IMG/VR virus record: IMGVR_UViG_3300032323_001334
Location: 1-29,917 of that record
Source of the DNA: a virus
Strand: one strand, 5' to 3'
Length of the DNA: 29,917 nucleotides
This document shows, piece after piece, positions 1,611 to 15,352 of the stretch (its first letter is position 1; every line of letters starts with the position of its first letter). The translations under genes and the position numbers were made by a program. The notes under the pieces are model-generated. The model saw only the letters and a program-made list of their open reading frames with translations, was not told the origin of the DNA and made no database searches.

Positions 1611-2225
1611 TTAAAGGTCTTTTGTCATTTCGTGGATGCGACGCGCCTGTTCAATTTCTTCCGGGGTCAGGTCGCGCAAATGGTGGCTTTCGTTTTTTGA
1701 GGGACCGCCGCTGCGCCCCAAGCGCGAGCGGGCGGAGCCCTCCCCATCTTCTTTCTCTGTTTCTCCCGCTGCCGCTTGAGGCGGCGCGGAGAAACTGTTC
1801 TCTTTCTCTATTAAGCGACCCTGTGAGGGTTTCACGTCGTGACCCTGTGAGGGTTTCACGTGCTCACCCTGTGAGGGTGTGCCATGACCCTGTGAGGGTT
1901 GGCAAATTGAGAGCAAACAAAATGAGTTTCGGGTTGCTCTTCGGCTTCCATTTGAGCCCGAAAAGATGCGAACCAGTCCGACTTTTGCAAGCACCGGCAA
2001 GCACCTCGCAACGGTGTTTTTTGACGCTCCTATGTGGTTTGCTAGTTGTTCGTATGAGGCTGCAAAGCGGCGTTTCTGGTCGGTTCCTGCTGCACTCTGG
2101 AAATGCGTTAGTGCGTGATAAACGGCGTAGTGATTGGGTCCGTATTGCCCTGCAATTTTGGCAGCTTCGCGGGTCTGCCAAGAAAACGGGCCTTCATCTC
2201 TTGGGTTCTCAGAGCGTGGTTTCAT
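1611..2225 (-). CDS. Lambda O-like replication initiator (winged helix)
   Basis: A 204-aa protein, probably the origin-binding initiator. Residues about 33-90 form a winged helix: YHALTHF, then ASYEQLANHIGASKNTVARCLPVLAKVGLVRI with SGS in the wing, the pattern of phage and plasmid initiator N-terminal domains. Residues 110-136 contain four PSQG repeats, encoded by four identical palindromic 13-mers that look like origin iterons. The C-terminal half is polar, with a final helix (LTPEEIEQARRIHEMTKDL) that could contact the helicase. The start overlaps the helicase stop (ATGA). Lambda O has the same plan: N-terminal binding domain and iterons inside the gene. The family is inferred from pattern, not from a search. 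Confidence 0.75.
   Translation of the reverse strand: MKPRSENPRDEGPFSWQTREAAKIAGQYGPNHYAVYHALTHFQSAAGTDQKRRFAASYEQLANHIGASKNTVARCLPVLAKVGLVRIFSGSNGSRRATRNSFCLLSICQPSQGHGTPSQGEHVKPSQGHDVKPSQGRLIEKENSFSAPPQAAAGETEKEDGEGSARSRLGRSGGPSKNESHHLRDLTPEEIEQARRIHEMTKDL
1818..1899. other. Candidate replication origin: four palindromic iterons
   Basis: Four exact copies of ACCCTGTGAGGGT lie at 1818-1830, 1842-1854, 1866-1878 and 1887-1899, with start spacings of 24, 24 and 21 bp. Each is an inverted repeat (ACCCT-GTG-AGGGT), and they sit in the middle of the initiator gene. AT-richer stretches flank both sides (about 1785-1817 and 1900-1925). The lambda ori is likewise an array of four iterons with inverted symmetry inside gene O. 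No other copy is seen in the window. Confidence 0.75.
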
Positions 2226-3559
2226 TTTCGCTTTTTAGGTTCTTCTGGCGGCTCTGGCCGGCTGCACTGAATCCAGACAGTGCCGGTTACTTTTGGATCT
2301 TTTGGGTGCCGGATGTATATTTTAGCCGTGGCTTTCTTTGTGTCGTGATCGGCCATTCCAGCTCGATTGCGGCGCTTGGTCGCAGTCAATGAGCAGCAAG
2401 GCGGATGGTCTTCTGGTGCCGGGACACGCTGCAATGTCACCACCTCGCGAGCCCAGTTGGTAAGCGCGCTCGACCCAAAGCCGGAATAAGCAAGGTCACT
2501 ATCGGTTGCGACATGTCCTTCTCGCGGCTTGGGAAGATGATGAATGAGGCACATAACGCAGCCGGACTTGGCGCTGATGCGGTTGAGTGCGTTACAGAAT
2601 GCTGTGACGACGCCTTGGTCACTGAGGTCGTCGCCGATGTAGCACATCAGCGGATCAATCCAAACGAGATCAGGTTGGTGCTTAACAACCAAAGCCTCAA
2701 GGACTCGCAAAAACTCTACCCCTGCATGCACGTTGTCCCTATAAAAAATGATCCGTTGTGAAAGGTCGGCTAATTCATCTGGTGTGATTTCATTGTTACT
2801 GCCTTTTGCGTATTTGCTAATCACGCCCTGCAATACGTCCGCTTGATCGCCGATGTCATTTTCAGCCTGAATGATGAGTGATTTAAGAGGTCGCGCGGCA
2901 CGAATGGAAAATGTGCACGCTTGAGAGAATAAATGGTCAGGATCAAGTGCCCATCCAATGGCCAATTGCATGGTCAGCGAGCTTTTGCCGATCCCGCTCT
3001 GAGCGTTAAGCAGCAAACTTCCGCCTTTGCAGAGCCAACGGTCGCCGATGACCGTGTTCGGGTCATGCCGCGTGTCGTACGTCAGTAAATCATCAAAATC
3101 CGTCTGAACAATGTCGCCCAGTCCCTGCGCTGCACTGGCAACCGCCACGGCCTCGCCCAGCTCCGTCACAACGTCGCCAACTGCGCCGCCCTGGTTGATC
3201 GCCTCCAGCGCCTTTGCAAGACTCGCTTGCAGTGCCCGCTTGCTTGCAGTCTCGCGGATCAGTTGGCACCAGTTCGCGAGCGGTGCGAACGTTTCCGGCC
3301 CGATCAGGCCAGACATCAGACTGTGCGACACTCCACGCTCGGCTAGTCGCCGGAAAACGGTGATGGCGTCCAGAGTGGTCCCCGAGTCAGAAAGTGCCAA
3401 AATGCCACCAAACACTGCGCCGAGTTCTGCGCTGCCGAAATCAACCGCCCGCAGCCCAGTGGACCGTACAACATCGAGTGCTCTGGTCGGGTCGTACAAA
3501 AGGCACCCAGCAACCGCCCGCTCGGCCTGTTCAGCCTGCGGCAAAGTGAGGTGCTGCAC
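2222..3559 (-). CDS. Replicative helicase: DnaB-N-like plus RepA-type ATPase
   Basis: A 445-aa protein, the probable replicative DNA helicase. Residues 1-110 resemble the N-terminal domain of DnaB (LPQAEQAERAVAGCLLYDP, then VDF and LDAITVFRRLAERG). Residues about 165-430 form a RecA-fold ATPase of the RepA/AAA_25 type: Walker A NAQSGIGKSS (185-194), Walker B LVWIDP (298-303), and LIHHLPKP (338-345), where the sensor His usually lies. The tail is rich in Pro, Glu and Lys. The start chosen is GTG at 3559, one base after the upstream stop, with AGAGG about 10 nt before it. An upstream in-frame TTG (3577) is possible. It overlaps the initiator, so initiator and helicase are probably made together. 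Confidence 0.85.
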   Translation of the reverse strand: MQHLTLPQAEQAERAVAGCLLYDPTRALDVVRSTGLRAVDFGSAELGAVFGGILALSDSGTTLDAITVFRRLAERGVSHSLMSGLIGPETFAPLANWCQLIRETASKRALQASLAKALEAINQGGAVGDVVTELGEAVAVASAAQGLGDIVQTDFDDLLTYDTRHDPNTVIGDRWLCKGGSLLLNAQSGIGKSSLTMQLAIGWALDPDHLFSQACTFSIRAARPLKSLIIQAENDIGDQADVLQGVISKYAKGSNNEITPDELADLSQRIIFYRDNVHAGVEFLRVLEALVVKHQPDLVWIDPLMCYIGDDLSDQGVVTAFCNALNRISAKSGCVMCLIHHLPKPREGHVATDSDLAYSGFGSSALTNWAREVVTLQRVPAPEDHPPCCSLTATKRRNRAGMADHDTKKATAKIYIRHPKDPKVTGTVWIQCSRPEPPEEPKKRK

Positions 3560-3560
3560 G

Positions 3561-3776
3561 TTACAGCGCCTCTGCAAAAGCCCGCATCGCCCGTTGCTCT
3601 GGCGTCAATGGGTCAGCCTCCAGTGTGGCCTCAAAAATAGCCGCAGCCTTGGCAAGCAGCATGGTTTCCAACCTGCTGGGGTCAAGCGACGGTTGGCCAG
3701 TGCGCCTAAAAACCCGTTCCACCGCTTCCAGTTCGCCCGCAATCCGATCCGCTTCAGTCGTGTTTCGTTTGTTCAT
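3561..3776 (-). CDS. Hypothetical 71-aa helical protein
   Basis: A small charged, mostly helical protein (MNKRNTTEADRIAGELEAVERVF, ending LTPEQRAMRAFAEAL). No family recognised. The ATG at 3776 is chosen because the leader just before it (ACAACTCAAAAACGACTACG) matches the A/C-rich leaders of the genes at 7746 and 7569. Longer in-frame extensions run into the SSB-like gene. It lies directly before the helicase (one base between stop and GTG), so a role as helicase partner or loader is possible but unproven. Confidence 0.6.
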   Translation of the reverse strand: MNKRNTTEADRIAGELEAVERVFRRTGQPSLDPSRLETMLLAKAAAIFEATLEADPLTPEQRAMRAFAEAL

Positions 3777-10525: not shown

Positions 10526-10688
10526 GGTTCTCGTTTGCTTCGTTCAAAAGCCGCTCCCAAAGGGCCTTGCGGTCAGTTTCGCACTCCTTGATTTTGCCGT
10601 TGAGGTACCACACTGCGGCCAGCGTAAGAGCCATGGAAAGCCCCTGCGCGGCTGCCTGCTGTGCGATTAGGTCGAGGAGTTGGGTCAT
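10509..10688 (-). CDS. 59-aa protein with one membrane segment
   Basis: A short gene (starts MTQLLDLIAQQAAAQG) with one hydrophobic helix at about 15-29 (GLSMALTLAAVWYLN) followed by a charged helical tail (KIKECETDRKALWERLLNEANENHE). One N-terminal membrane anchor and a coiled-coil-like soluble tail is the plan of i-spanin or Rz-like proteins and of some small holins. Its ATG overlaps the fibre stop (TAATG) and it overlaps the holin candidate by 17 nt. It is probably the second lysis membrane protein. Confidence 0.6.
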   Translation of the reverse strand: MTQLLDLIAQQAAAQGLSMALTLAAVWYLNGKIKECETDRKALWERLLNEANENHETDI

Positions 10689-12349
10689 TAGAAATAGGTG
10701 GTAACAATCACAATGCCAGAAGCCCCGTTTCCGCCTGCGCCAGAGTTTCCAACGCCATCGAGTCCGGCTCCACCACCTCCACCTGCGCCACCGTAAGTGC
10801 CACCATTACCACCATTGCCGGCATTGCCCGTGACGCTTGATCCGCCGCCAGCACCTGCGCTTCCCGGAGCAGGAAAATTAGCAGCAACATTAGGAGCGGT
10901 TCCTCCGTTGCCTCCTATAACTCCACCTGTAGCAGTTCCGCCAGACAACCAAGAGCCAAGGGCAGTTCCGCCATTTCCACCAGTAAATCCAACTGTTGCA
11001 GATGCTGGCAGTCCACCCCCACTCCCGCCACCTGCTCCTGCCGTGGTGCTGTTGACGCCACCTGCGCCAGCGCCACCACCGCCTGTGCCTCCATTCCCAC
11101 CTTGAAACATTGCGCGAGCACTTGATGACGCACCGGCTGGACCAGATGTATTTGTGGCAGCCCCGGCTCCACCTCCACCAGCAACCTGAATCCAAGTGCC
11201 AAACGAAGAGTTTCCTCCAGCACCTCCAGTGTTACCGTTTGTGCTGTTCGTAGTCACAGACGCGCCGCCTGTGCCTCCACTGCCAACAGTAACAGTTTCA
11301 GTTGCGCCAAGCAGCGCGGCAGAAATGTTTCTCACCGAATAAGACCCGCCGCCGCCTCCGCCCCCACCAGATGCCTGAGTTCCAACGCCACCTTTACGGC
11401 CAGACCCACCACCACCTCCGGCAGAAATTACAACTACGTCGACAGCAACTGCGCCATCGGGTTTTGTCCAAGTTCCGTTGGTGGTAAATGTTTGGACATT
11501 ACACTTTGCGGCTTTTGCACTAAGGGCGTCTGTTAGCCCGCTAATTTTGCTCTGTGCAATAGCCGCAGCGGCGTCCACGTCTGCATCCACTAGCAGACTC
11601 GCCGGGCTTTGGATCACCGAACTAATTACCTTAACCAAGCCGGTCCCTGTCACCGAGGGGATTGTAGTGTGGACGTGTGAAGGCTTGGCATCGCCTGTGT
11701 AAATCGTGATTGTGCGGTTGTTTGCGGTCGCTTTAGCCTGCACCTCAATGTAGATCCGATCCGTCGCGAGTAGCGTCGTTTGCGGAATCACCACGCTGGC
11801 AATGTACTGCGCCGCAACGGTCGGATCGTATATCGAAATGTCGTCCGAAGTGGCCAATAGCGTTGGTGCGTTTGCACCGTCGTATTTGAATATTTGCAGC
11901 CTAAAGATGGTCTGATGCGATTGACTGGCATTTGACGATGCCCACAGGTTAAAGTCGAAAAGGCCCGCTGGAATCGTGGTGGTGCCAGGATCGAGCACAT
12001 CGGACACAAATCCTTTAATCAGCGTGTAGTCCGCTTGCGAAAGCGTGCCGGAAGTGATGGTTGTCAGCGCCGTGTCTGCTACGCGGCCAAGCTCAACAGG
12101 AGTGCCCGGAAGGCCCGTTGTTGGAGATTGTGCAGCGGTTGCGCCGTTGAGGTAAAACGCAACCCCGCCACCGCCTGATCCGCCATTCGCGGGCGCGCCG
12201 GGCACCCAGGCTTCACCGTTCCACGTTAAAACTTCCCCGTCGCGAGGAGTAACGGCGGCCACCGCGTTGCCCTTGAGTTTGTCCACACTCGTCGAGTGCA
12301 GCCCGCCGGACACGTCGCCGGAAAGTATAGGAGAGTTGAGAGATGGCAT
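10688..12349 (-). CDS. Tail fibre/adhesin with C-terminal glycine-rich domain
   Basis: A 553-aa structural protein. Residues 1-75 form a short N-terminal region with WNGEAWVPGAP. Residues about 75-230 form a beta-rich domain ending in HVHTTIP. The last about 260 residues (from TWTKPDGAVAVDVVVISAGGGG) are a Gly-rich repeat domain with runs of 4-8 Gly, ending in ASGIVIVTTYF. Such domains form packed polyglycine-II helices in phage adhesins (known for Salmonella phage S16 gp38), and their loops contact the host. The gene at 12719 has a related domain. It is probably the distal receptor-binding part of the tail. Confidence 0.75.
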   Translation of the reverse strand: MPSLNSPILSGDVSGGLHSTSVDKLKGNAVAAVTPRDGEVLTWNGEAWVPGAPANGGSGGGGVAFYLNGATAAQSPTTGLPGTPVELGRVADTALTTITSGTLSQADYTLIKGFVSDVLDPGTTTIPAGLFDFNLWASSNASQSHQTIFRLQIFKYDGANAPTLLATSDDISIYDPTVAAQYIASVVIPQTTLLATDRIYIEVQAKATANNRTITIYTGDAKPSHVHTTIPSVTGTGLVKVISSVIQSPASLLVDADVDAAAAIAQSKISGLTDALSAKAAKCNVQTFTTNGTWTKPDGAVAVDVVVISAGGGGGSGRKGGVGTQASGGGGGGGGSYSVRNISAALLGATETVTVGSGGTGGASVTTNSTNGNTGGAGGNSSFGTWIQVAGGGGAGAATNTSGPAGASSSARAMFQGGNGGTGGGGAGAGGVNSTTAGAGGGSGGGLPASATVGFTGGNGGTALGSWLSGGTATGGVIGGNGGTAPNVAANFPAPGSAGAGGGSSVTGNAGNGGNGGTYGGAGGGGGAGLDGVGNSGAGGNGASGIVIVTTYF

Positions 12350-12350
12350 A

Positions 12351-12716
12351 TTAGATCAGTTCGACCCAGTTGAGTTGCGCCTCGTCCCACTCGTAAACTT
12401 TGCCGTCTTGTGGCATGGGCACGGGAGGCTGCCAGATCCATTCTGGCGCGGAGATCGTCCACGATAGGAACGGCTGCGGTGCGTGGTAAACGTCTTCGGC
12501 CTGATTGTAAATATAGCCGACGCCCGCGTAGTTGGCGCGCAGTGCTACGCCGCCGTCGGGCTGCCCGTCTGGCCCGTAATGTACCCCGCCGCGGGTGTTG
12601 TATGAGGTTTGCAGCCAAGTTCCGGGCGATGAATCGACAAACGTCAGAAAAAACTCAGGCTCGGCAACAATAACCTGCTGCACCACGCCGTTTAGGACTT
12701 TTGCAAAGTGTGCCAT
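12351..12716 (-). CDS. Small virion-associated protein of cyanophage-like type
   Basis: A 121-aa protein: MAHFAKVLNGVVQQVIVAE, then PGTWLQTSYNTRGGVH, NYAGVGYIYN, PFLSWT...WIWQPPVPMP and a WDEAQLNWVEL end. I know this pattern from small structural proteins of marine and cyanobacterial tailed phages, where it is common but of unproven function. It lies between two glycine-rich fibre genes, so it may be a fibre connector or chaperone. Its stop is one base from the next ATG. Confidence 0.65.
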   Translation of the reverse strand: MAHFAKVLNGVVQQVIVAEPEFFLTFVDSSPGTWLQTSYNTRGGVHYGPDGQPDGGVALRANYAGVGYIYNQAEDVYHAPQPFLSWTISAPEWIWQPPVPMPQDGKVYEWDEAQLNWVELI

Positions 12717-12718
12717 AA

Positions 12719-14401
12719 TTAAGCAGCGTAGGTGCCCGAGCTTGTGTAAGTCAAAACGGTGTTGCTGCCGGACGTTGTAACCGTCGGCGAGCCGGTTGTG
12801 ATGCCAGTGTATTGGCTAGTGGGAATCGACAAAATAACAACGCCAGAGCCGCCATTTCCCCCTGTTGCCGGGCTGCCAGTTGCCCCGCCACCGCCGCCGC
12901 CTGTGTTTGCCGCGCCCGCAAAACCAGTAGTTGCTGCACCATTGCCACCGCCACCTAGGCCGCCAGTACCTTGGCTAACGCCAGAAGATCCACCGCCCCC
13001 TCCAGCGTAATAAGTGGCGCTGCCACTGATGTTGGACTGCAATCCAACGCCGCCGTTTCCACCCAAATTCGTTGTGCCAGGAGATCCAACCGCGCCAGCA
13101 CCACCGCCACCTCCGGCAGGGCTTGACGAAATGCCTGGAGTTGCCCCGCCGTTGTTGCCCTGTCCTTGAGTCCCAGAGCCACCGTTTGAGCTTGCGCCTA
13201 TTGAGGTGTTCGCACCAGCGCCCCCACCCGATCCGCCATTTTGCCCAACCAAATTGCCAGCGGTTGCCGCGCCCCAACGTCCTGCCCCGCCGCCGCCGAT
13301 AGCTGTCACGGTTGCAAATGCCGAATAGGTGCCATTCGCGCCAACCGTCCCGGGCGTAGGGTAAACAGTTCCGGCACCCCCGGCTCCCACCACAATGGAG
13401 TATGTCGAGCCAAAGACTAAAGGCATGACGGTTTCGATCATTCCGCCAGCGCCGCCGCCTCCGCCAGTTCCCCCGCCTCCACCAGCAACGATGAGCACGT
13501 TTGCCGTGTACGCTGGAGCAATTTTTTGGGTCGTCAGGCTCGTAACGCGGCCTTTTGCGTCGATGCTCAAAACGGGAATCTGCGTCGAGCTTCCCACGTT
13601 ACTCTGCGCGGTCGTGATCGCCGCGAGCGTTGGGCTGGGATAGTTTCCAGTGAGATCTCCACCGGCTGTGGCAGTAGCGCCCAGTGCGCCAACATCAGCC
13701 GCAGACGGCAAAAGATGCGCGTGGTCTGCCCGAGCGGCAAAGGTGCTCAAACCCGCGATTGCCGTGGTCGAAAGCGCCGCCGGTGCGGTCGTGGACAGTC
13801 CGGCGATTTGTGCCGTTGTCAGTGCGACAAACGCCGTTGTGCTCAACGCGGTCACCTGTCCCTGGTCGTTAATTGAGAGAACCGGGATCGCCGTGGAACT
13901 GCCCACATTGCTCTGTGCGGTCGTGATCGCTGCAATCGAGATTGTGCCCGAGTCGGTAATGGTTCCACCTTCCAGCCCCGTGCCTGCGGTGATGCTGGTC
14001 ACCGTGCCAGATCCACCGCCGCCGCCTGAGCCTGCCACAATGGCGCGGATGGAAATTAATTCCCCGTCCACGGGAGCCTCTACAAAAGTGATGGTCCCGC
14101 CTGCGGTGGACGAGATCGAGTATTTGCTCGGCGGTTGGTCAATACCGCCAACGCTGACAATGTATCCACCGTCGGCTGTCCCGTTGTAGCCCCCAAACGT
14201 AAACGCTACGGTGGTGCCGTCGCCCGTGTGCTCGGTCACCGTAGTACCAGCCGACACGGGACCGTTTAACAGCATCACGCCGCCGTCGCCGCCTAGGTAA
14301 AGCTCGCCGTCTGCTGTGTTGACGGCAAGCTCGCCCAGTTGCAGCGACGCAGGATTTCCCGGCGCGCCGCTCCTACGTTTTGGGATAATCGGAAACGCCA
14401 T
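12719..14401 (-). CDS. Tail fibre with duplicated beta modules and glycine-rich domain
   Basis: A 560-aa fibre protein. The N terminus (MAFPIIPKRRSGAPGNP...LGELAVNT) is shared with the next upstream fibre and probably docks to the tail. Residues about 150-300 contain two copies of an ITTAQSNVGSS-IPVLSI module, which at DNA level is a repeat of about 66 bp near 13560 and 13870. From about residue 300 (TANVLIVAGGGGG) to 525 runs a polyglycine-rich domain ending GSGVVILSIP, followed by a short Ser/Thr-rich tail. The glycine domain resembles that of the 10688-12349 gene, so the virion may carry two adhesins of the same fold. Confidence 0.75.
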   Translation of the reverse strand: MAFPIIPKRRSGAPGNPASLQLGELAVNTADGELYLGGDGGVMLLNGPVSAGTTVTEHTGDGTTVAFTFGGYNGTADGGYIVSVGGIDQPPSKYSISSTAGGTITFVEAPVDGELISIRAIVAGSGGGGGSGTVTSITAGTGLEGGTITDSGTISIAAITTAQSNVGSSTAIPVLSINDQGQVTALSTTAFVALTTAQIAGLSTTAPAALSTTAIAGLSTFAARADHAHLLPSAADVGALGATATAGGDLTGNYPSPTLAAITTAQSNVGSSTQIPVLSIDAKGRVTSLTTQKIAPAYTANVLIVAGGGGGTGGGGGAGGMIETVMPLVFGSTYSIVVGAGGAGTVYPTPGTVGANGTYSAFATVTAIGGGGAGRWGAATAGNLVGQNGGSGGGAGANTSIGASSNGGSGTQGQGNNGGATPGISSSPAGGGGGAGAVGSPGTTNLGGNGGVGLQSNISGSATYYAGGGGGSSGVSQGTGGLGGGGNGAATTGFAGAANTGGGGGGATGSPATGGNGGSGVVILSIPTSQYTGITTGSPTVTTSGSNTVLTYTSSGTYAA

Positions 14402-14404
14402 GGC

Positions 14405-15352
14405 TTAATAGGTGCCTGCGGACGCTACGGTCGCGGTGCCGTCGAGTGCGATATTGATGGAGTCCGACGACTTCACACCGCCGACAATCGTGGACGTGCC
14501 GGGAATAATTTTGGCGGCACCACCGGCAGAAACGTAGAGCCCGTTGGACGTGTCAGCGTCCACGCTGATGACGCCCAACTGCGTGGTGCTCGCCACGTTC
14601 AACTGTGCATCAGAGACTTTGCCGTTTGAGTCGAGTTTGACGACCTTCCCTGGCGTTGCGGTCAGCACTGCGTCAGCGGTTGCCACTGCTTCGACGTTGG
14701 CAGCGGTCAAAACCACGTTGCCGCCCGCCGTGGGAGAAACGGAATTGACGCTGCGCACCTCAGATTTTGCGCCATCAATAAAGTCCCAGGTCGTGCCGTT
14801 GAAAGCGATCATATCGCCCGCCTGTACAACGGTCTGCCCGTCAATCGCGGTGCCGAGTGTCGCGCTATTGGCAGCAATGTAGTAATCGCCCTTTTCAGCG
14901 GTGCCGCTACCAACTACGCCGCCAGATGCAATTGCCGGCGAGGTGTTAACCGTCCAAGCGCCTCGGTAAGTCAGCGCTCCAACGGATGCGGCTGGCAGGA
15001 AACTGGAATCAATTTTACCGCTCGAAGTCGTCAGCGGGATTTTGTTGGCAACGCCCGTGGATGACTGCGATGCGTCGGCAATCTGGCTGTATTTGAGTCC
15101 CGAGATCTGAGCCTCTGCGATGATCCCGCCGCTTGTGAGCTTTACGACCTTGCCAGCGGTCGCGGTTTCCACCGCGTCAGTGGAGAGGATGCGATCCCAG
15201 CCGATTTCGACCACCTCATCCCCGTTTGCTTTGAGGAAGGTTTTTTTAGACTGGGTGTTTACGGCAAGCTCACCGAGGAGCAAATCACTTGCTCCAGGAG
15301 GTGTTGCACTGCCTGCTGTCGAATTGCGCTTGGGTTGGATTGGAAATGCCAT
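14405..15352 (-). CDS. Tail fibre protein, paralogous N terminus
   Basis: A 315-aa fibre. It starts MAFPIQPKRNSTAG and continues to LLLGELAVNT, matching the start of the 560-aa fibre, so both probably bind the same tail site. The middle part (residues 85-200) resembles phage fibre shaft sequence (LTYRGAWTVNTSP, GDYYIAANS, GDMIAFNGTTWDFIDG). The rest is Ser/Thr/Ala-rich beta sequence ending ATVASAGTY. It lacks the glycine-rich tip. It could be an alternative or proximal fibre. Three bases separate it from the next gene. Confidence 0.7.
   Translation of the reverse strand: MAFPIQPKRNSTAGSATPPGASDLLLGELAVNTQSKKTFLKANGDEVVEIGWDRILSTDAVETATAGKVVKLTSGGIIAEAQISGLKYSQIADASQSSTGVANKIPLTTSSGKIDSSFLPAASVGALTYRGAWTVNTSPAIASGGVVGSGTAEKGDYYIAANSATLGTAIDGQTVVQAGDMIAFNGTTWDFIDGAKSEVRSVNSVSPTAGGNVVLTAANVEAVATADAVLTATPGKVVKLDSNGKVSDAQLNVASTTQLGVISVDADTSNGLYVSAGGAAKIIPGTSTIVGGVKSSDSINIALDGTATVASAGTY

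Follow-up and report, generated by a model that had tools for sequence, protein, structure and literature searches.

The window, as we call the whole stretch of DNA analysed here, comprises the 29,917 bases of the IMG/VR virus record IMGVR_UViG_3300032323_001334. On its minus strand, an ORF at 1611–2225 that encodes a winged-helix (wH) protein overlaps by 4 bp the ORF of a replicative helicase at 2222–3577. The wH gene carries a putative replication origin, and the features of the locus are as follows.

2222–3577, minus strand: replicative helicase gene (DnaB_N plus a RepA-like AAA_25 part; PF00772, E=6e-8, and PF13481, E=4e-20, both above the curated cut-offs)
1611–2225, minus strand: winged-helix initiator gene (204 aa) holding the putative origin, defined from the ORF, profile matches and an AF2 model
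1983–2021, minus strand: predicted recognition helix, residues 69–81, with K69, N70 and A73 as class-determining residues (AF2 model, CAP alignment and class-informative residues)
1887–1899, minus strand: iteron 1, exact 13-mer, closest to the HTH-coding part
1866–1878, minus strand: iteron 2, exact 13-mer
1842–1854, minus strand: iteron 3, exact 13-mer
1818–1830, minus strand: iteron 4, exact 13-mer, closest to the A-rich tract
1796–1816, minus strand: A-rich purine tract GCTTAATAGAGAAAGAGAACA, putative unwinding element, 21 nt long in 37 of 41 homologues
1759–1795, minus strand: hairpin 1, stem of 8+2+5 bp with two conserved bulges on the 3′ side and a 5-nt loop
1705–1735, minus strand: hairpin 2, stem of 5+3+5 bp with two bulges on the 5′ side; more weakly supported than hairpin 1

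The ATPase part of the helicase matches AAA_25 and not a DnaB C-terminal model. Relatives of this helicase in phages are only 23–25% identical, and none was detected in plasmids at a threshold of 1e-5. Elsewhere in the window, two adjacent genes within 10688–15352 start alike (MAFPIQPKR and MAFPIIPKR), and two of the three genes there (10688–12349 and 12719–14401) have long glycine-rich tails and are tail-fibre-like.

A sequence-only reading of this DNA had described four exact 13-bp palindromes, spaced at 24/24/21 bp and appearing in the protein as PSQG repeats, inside a winged-helix gene beside a helicase gene. A sequence search found the same arrangement again: the 13-mer ACCCTGTGAGGGT occurs in exactly four exact copies (1818–1830, 1842–1854, 1866–1878 and 1887–1899), with start-to-start distances of 24, 24 and 21 bp. 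No further copy of the 13-mer, and no ACCC-N5-GGGT site outside the four iterons, was found in the 29,917 bases. Each iteron is an interrupted palindrome, in which 4-bp arms (ACCC/GGGT; 5-bp arms in one copy) flank a 5-bp spacer. It reads ACCC-TGTGA-GGGT and, on the coding (minus) strand, ACCC-TCACA-GGGT, which is translated as PSQG, so that the 204-aa protein contains this peptide four times. The same reading had proposed GC skew as a check on the origin. The skew has no turning point near 1.8 kb and is uninformative in this respect, since nearly all genes lie on one strand.

To place the array in its family, we used 48 distinct homologous genes from IMG/VR contigs, the window's own included, of which 42 are close and 6 distant. 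An array of 3–5 repeats was present in all 42 close homologues, in a constant position immediately behind the winged helix; L019 has three copies, and L066, L071 and L083 have five. Iteron offsets from a common anchor were mostly 1, 22, 46 and 70 throughout six classes of half-site, which we name by their sequence: ACCC (11 genes), GTnCA (17), ACGCC (7), GGTCA (2), ATGAC (3) and GGGAC (2). Each gene carries a single class, common to all its copies. The 5-bp spacer is outside the class signature and is often rich in CA/TG (TCACA, CCACA, TGTGA, TGTGT) in most classes. In five ACCC-class genes (L017, L018, L019, L022 and L097), the right half-site of the last iteron is GGTG instead of GGGT (PSQVC in the protein), and in L022 two copies have this degenerate half-site; thus, not every copy need be functional. 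One locus of nine, L061, has an additional GTnCA-type site about 4.5 kb upstream of its array, possibly by chance. The six distant homologues (L089, L090, L091, L092, L093 and L109), which lie beside related helicases, also have palindromic arrays, with other half-sites (GTCCC-N5-GGGAC in L091), followed by downstream hairpins, indicating that the plan of the array extends beyond the close family.

The initiator has no detectable relatives in annotated phages and, in plasmids, one distant partial match only (E=0.1). The sole match of a scan of bacterial genomes was discarded because the aligned stretch covered just 27 residues. A pair of exact 13-mers occurs in IMG/VR only in the six contigs already recovered by protein, and the ACCC class is therefore narrow. 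A fold search returned A0A6J5NTP9, a UniProt entry from an uncultured phage annotated as 'Crp-type HTH domain containing protein', which is 68% identical to the initiator. The protein has thus been sequenced before; we found no study of it in open-access full texts.

Selection on DNA rather than on protein had been suggested from third-position identity among the four copies. We compared the arrays with a synonymous null, in which the protein sequence was fixed and codons were drawn from the family's usage (5,000 draws). In the window, half-site identity among copies was 54/60 against an expected 38.3±2.6 (p=0.0002, the floor of 5,000 draws), a value for which this null cannot exclude recent duplication, since duplication within one gene could also produce third-position identity. 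Palindromic pairs numbered 17/20 against 10.8±1.2 (p=0.0002, the same floor). Over 39 distinct arrays, 630 palindromic pairs were observed where the null gave 358±9.7, about 28 SD lower. Within the GTnCA class, the half-site bases at third codon positions (T, A, T, A) were invariant in 65/65 iterons, and codon positions 1 and 2 of the spacer were free to vary. This pattern is the reverse of that expected from selection on protein.

The peptide itself varies among relatives. PSQG is replaced by TPHGR, TQFGR or TPDER, by APQAR, by SPQDL, by ATQS or YDSQ, and by DCES, while the DNA plan of half-site, five-base spacer and inverted half-site stays constant. Comparison of relatives thus bears out the suggestion of selection at the DNA level, third codon positions included: copy number ranges from three to five and the peptide changes, yet the palindromic plan is kept. 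We give almost no weight to the alternative that the repeats are a PSQG linker motif under protein selection, with recent tandem duplication alone behind their DNA identity. The within-gene identity noted above is what such a duplication would leave, but the peptide is exchanged wholesale between classes (PSQG, TPHG, APQA, SPQD, DCES) with geometry and palindromy persisting, the wobble bases of half-sites are fixed where spacer codons vary, and the array has been kept among all 42 close homologues despite identities to the window protein of 44–81%. Duplication as the sole source of DNA identity is ruled out by the wobble pattern, which holds class-wide. Under such selection on the DNA, some 70 residues of the protein would have a sequence dictated mainly by DNA signals.

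Downstream of the last iteron, the 21-nt A-rich purine tract separates the array from hairpin 1. On average the tract is 77% purine, 54% A and 66% AT, compared with 55%, 27% and 45% in whole genes. All 15 stem positions of hairpin 1 form Watson–Crick pairs in the window (codon null, 8.5±1.4), and 19 versions together have 279 pairs against 168.5±6.0 under the synonymous null. Among 17 distinct versions, 98.8% of cells were paired, 11 of the 15 pairs had changed on both sides, and G-U accounted for 2 of 255 cells; the covariation signal was lost when the register was slid. In four homologues, L033 (2470–3072), L035 (6001–6606), L045 (6001–6642) and L095 (7931–8557), the DNA of hairpin 1 is read in another frame. 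The peptide there is wholly altered (RAAPSGSG or similar, against SAPPQAAAG), and the stem is intact. Hairpin 2 was 97.8% paired, with two-sided changes in four pairs. Both hairpins lie in the part that encodes the disordered linker, and their bulges are on opposite sides, 3′ in hairpin 1 and 5′ in hairpin 2. No known RNA family was found in the window, and a role of hairpin 1 as an intrinsic terminator was rejected, as the terminator scan lists none there.

The hairpins could instead be mRNA elements, acting in regulation or stability beside genuine iterons and having no part in an origin. Both would be stable as RNA, and on the coding strand of hairpin 2, T-G pairs, which would pair in RNA, are frequent. 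Against this, the changes in hairpin 1 are near-strictly Watson–Crick, the rarity of G-U cells fitting DNA better than RNA, and a hairpin occupies the corresponding place in the lambda ori. On balance, we consider a purely mRNA role unlikely, and favor the view that hairpin 1, at least, acts as DNA.

We aligned the HTH of the window protein with CAP residues 166–198. CAP contacts bases through R180, E181 and R185; in the alignment, R180, E181 and the neighboring helix position 184 correspond to window residues 69, 70 and 73. With the repeats excluded, the residues most informative on iteron class were 77, 73, 69, 70 and 87. Each class has its own helix motif: KNTV(A/S)R with ACCC, RGTVK(T/A) or RGTVNS with GTnCA, QRTVCR with ACGCC, RGTVRI with GGTCA, ERTVAR with ATGAC and TKT(I/V)QR with GGGAC. 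Iteron class was concordant with residues 69/70 in 42/42 genes. In phylogenetically independent pairs, helix and iteron switched jointly in 9/9 cases for ACCC and 10/10 for GTnCA.

On the tree of the adjacent helicases, at least 19 changes of class are required, compared with 20.6±1.3 for shuffled labels (P=0.20), so that class is distributed at random on this tree. Sister phages have a valley of identity at the HTH and the iterons. Between L008 and L031, for example, identity is 89% in helicase DNA, 100% in the purine tract and hairpin and 95% in the C-terminus, and it falls to 49% in the HTH and 50% in the iterons. Helix and array fall within a span of about 130 bp, so that part of their association is explained by linked inheritance. 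Linkage alone is disfavored by the sharp break at the hairpin, 21 bp away, together with the absence of any mismatched combination of helix and iteron. These sequence comparisons are best read as a single specificity cassette made up of helix and iterons. It comes in at least six types and would have moved between relatives repeatedly, with the helicase and the 3′ end of the gene left in place.

Matches of the window protein to profiles (HTH_Crp_2, HTH_36 and RP-C) are weak, and PHROG families annotated as 'replication initiation' match at E of about 1e-4 to 3e-5. The AF2 model is confident for residues of about 20–105, the wH domain, and disordered for residues 110–183, the stretch encoding array, tract and hairpins. 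By sequence, the wH domain resembles transcription regulators of the CRP, MarR and Rrf2 types at least as much as initiators.

This resemblance is one reason to ask whether the array might be an operator or silencer, at which a winged-helix transcription factor acts from within its own gene to block or regulate operon transcription; helix and sites would covary in the same way if the protein bound a unique array in the operon that encodes it. We nevertheless regard an operator as improbable. To our knowledge, operators rarely consist of four sites phased at 21–24 bp in mid-gene, and no promoter-like excess was found near the array. Next to it lie the purine tract and the covarying hairpin, the gene that overlaps by 4 bp encodes a replicative helicase, and the matching PHROG families are replication initiators. 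More improbable still is that the array acts in partition, as a centromere-like site for a wH protein of the TubR/ParR kind. The tubC/parC centromeres do typically consist of iteron arrays to which wH proteins bind, and TubR (4asn) is among the weak matches of a fold search against solved structures, which gave nothing below E=1e-3. Here, however, the partner gene encodes a DnaB_N/AAA_25 helicase instead of a TubZ, ParM or ParA filament protein, and no partner of the TubZ, ParM or ParA type was found among the early genes scanned.

We conclude that the array is probably, at a rough probability of 0.85, the initiator-binding part of a replication origin located in the initiator's own gene, and that recognition helix and iterons pass between relatives as one cassette, of which there are at least six types. 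An interpretation as an origin of the lambda style is well supported on comparative grounds, by the palindromy, the wobble pattern, the covariation, the adjacent helicase gene, the uniqueness of the site and the lambda-like order of elements. Each 15-bp site is probably occupied by a dimer of the wH protein, whose two recognition helices would read the half-sites in successive major grooves, one turn apart, across the 5-bp spacer. The CA/TG-rich spacers would supply the flexible steps expected where DNA bends. Four bound dimers could then assemble into a nucleoprotein complex that strains and melts the adjacent A-rich purine tract, where the phage's own DnaB_N/AAA_25 helicase would be loaded. 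Opening of the tract would leave the hairpin single-stranded, and it may then help to place helicase or primase; this is the least-supported step of the scheme. Residues 110–183, a 74-residue peptide, would serve as a disordered linker with a sequence largely set by the DNA signals.

Why so many types should coexist invites a tentative proposal, possible rather than probable: origin specificity may be a balanced multi-allelic trait, akin to an incompatibility or immunity type, in which helix and iterons switch as a cassette and rare types escape interference. Frequent switching, and the escape of rare types, would account for the random distribution of type with respect to phage phylogeny. If so, the interference would come from co-infecting relatives, prophages or satellites with the same iterons, and the family, with its hairpin, would offer a natural specificity code joining recognition-helix residues to half-site sequence.

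Intragenic origins are usually known phage by phage. Here, one gene family presents at least six natural pairs of helix and half-site on a common background, swapped many times, so that the principles of origin choice by an initiator can be read from sequence. The covarying hairpin also raises the role of structured DNA at such origins. Intragenic origins and a type-specific O/ori are already known; the initiator family, its six interchangeable helix-plus-iteron classes and a covarying hairpin kept across frames appear undescribed, as we did not find them in open-access full texts, to which our literature negatives refer. Parts of this may already be contained in older papers on lambdoid and lactococcal origins that are available by subscription.

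The lambda ori is an iteron array inside gene O. In the lambda region 38600–39700, the annotated iterons start at 39034, 39054, 39078 and 39101 (spacing 20/24/23), and are followed by an A-rich purine tract and then a predicted hairpin at about 39158–39181. Both lambda and the window thus have four iterons in mid-gene, each an inverted repeat, with an A-rich purine tract and then a hairpin after them, in the same order and on the same scale. The last lambda iteron (array 39034–39118) encodes YPSKQGD in the same codon phase as KPSQGH of the window, and its half-sites, CCC/GGG, are similar, probably by coincidence. The likeness to lambda is closer than the sequence-only reading had stated, as it extends to tract and hairpin. 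The protein, for its part, could not be detected as belonging to the lambda O family. Among the families listed, PF04492 (Phage_rep_O) was matched by none of the 48 members, the window protein included, whereas lambda O matches it at 5.7e-36, and hhalign of the profile with lambda O gave a probability of 0.3%; membership in the O family was rejected on these grounds. O-like PHROG families do match the window protein at E of about 1e-4, and fold matches in BFVD include replication protein O (E of about 1e-4 to 3e-4, low TM-scores). Such weak similarity to initiators, O-like ones among them, would fit either a common winged-helix fold or convergence. The best reading of the sequences is a lambda-like intragenic origin whose protein is not a detectable homologue of lambda O. 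Lambda has a P-type loader beside O, whereas the initiator gene of the window has its own DnaB_N/AAA_25 helicase, which plausibly stands in for lambda P.

Other intragenic origins share parts of this organization. In SPP1, oriL lies inside gene 38 (gp38/G38P) (PMC6316719); unlike the window phage as we read it, SPP1 carries oriR as well, at a distance of about 13 kb, and has gp39 as a separate loader. In repABC plasmids, oriV lies inside repC, which has no iterons, and replication is lost when silent changes reduce A+T (PMC3155836). The window likewise has its origin, as proposed, within the initiator gene, and differs in having iterons. The window protein matches RP-C (PF03428) at E=0.0027 with 18 bits, below the curated cut-off of 24.4, and 11 of the 48 members match it at E≤0.01. 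For lambdoid phages and hybrids, the passage of PMC6022878 that cites Furth and Yates (1978) describes differences in O/ori specificity. In the O/ori of Stx phages (P27, 933W), the number of iterons varies (six, against four in lambda), which adds residues to O (PMC7466680). Iteron number varies in the window family as well (3–5, for example in L019, L066 and L071). The Stx phages have essentially one iteron class and near-identical O proteins, whereas the family described here has at least six classes, each with its own recognition helix.
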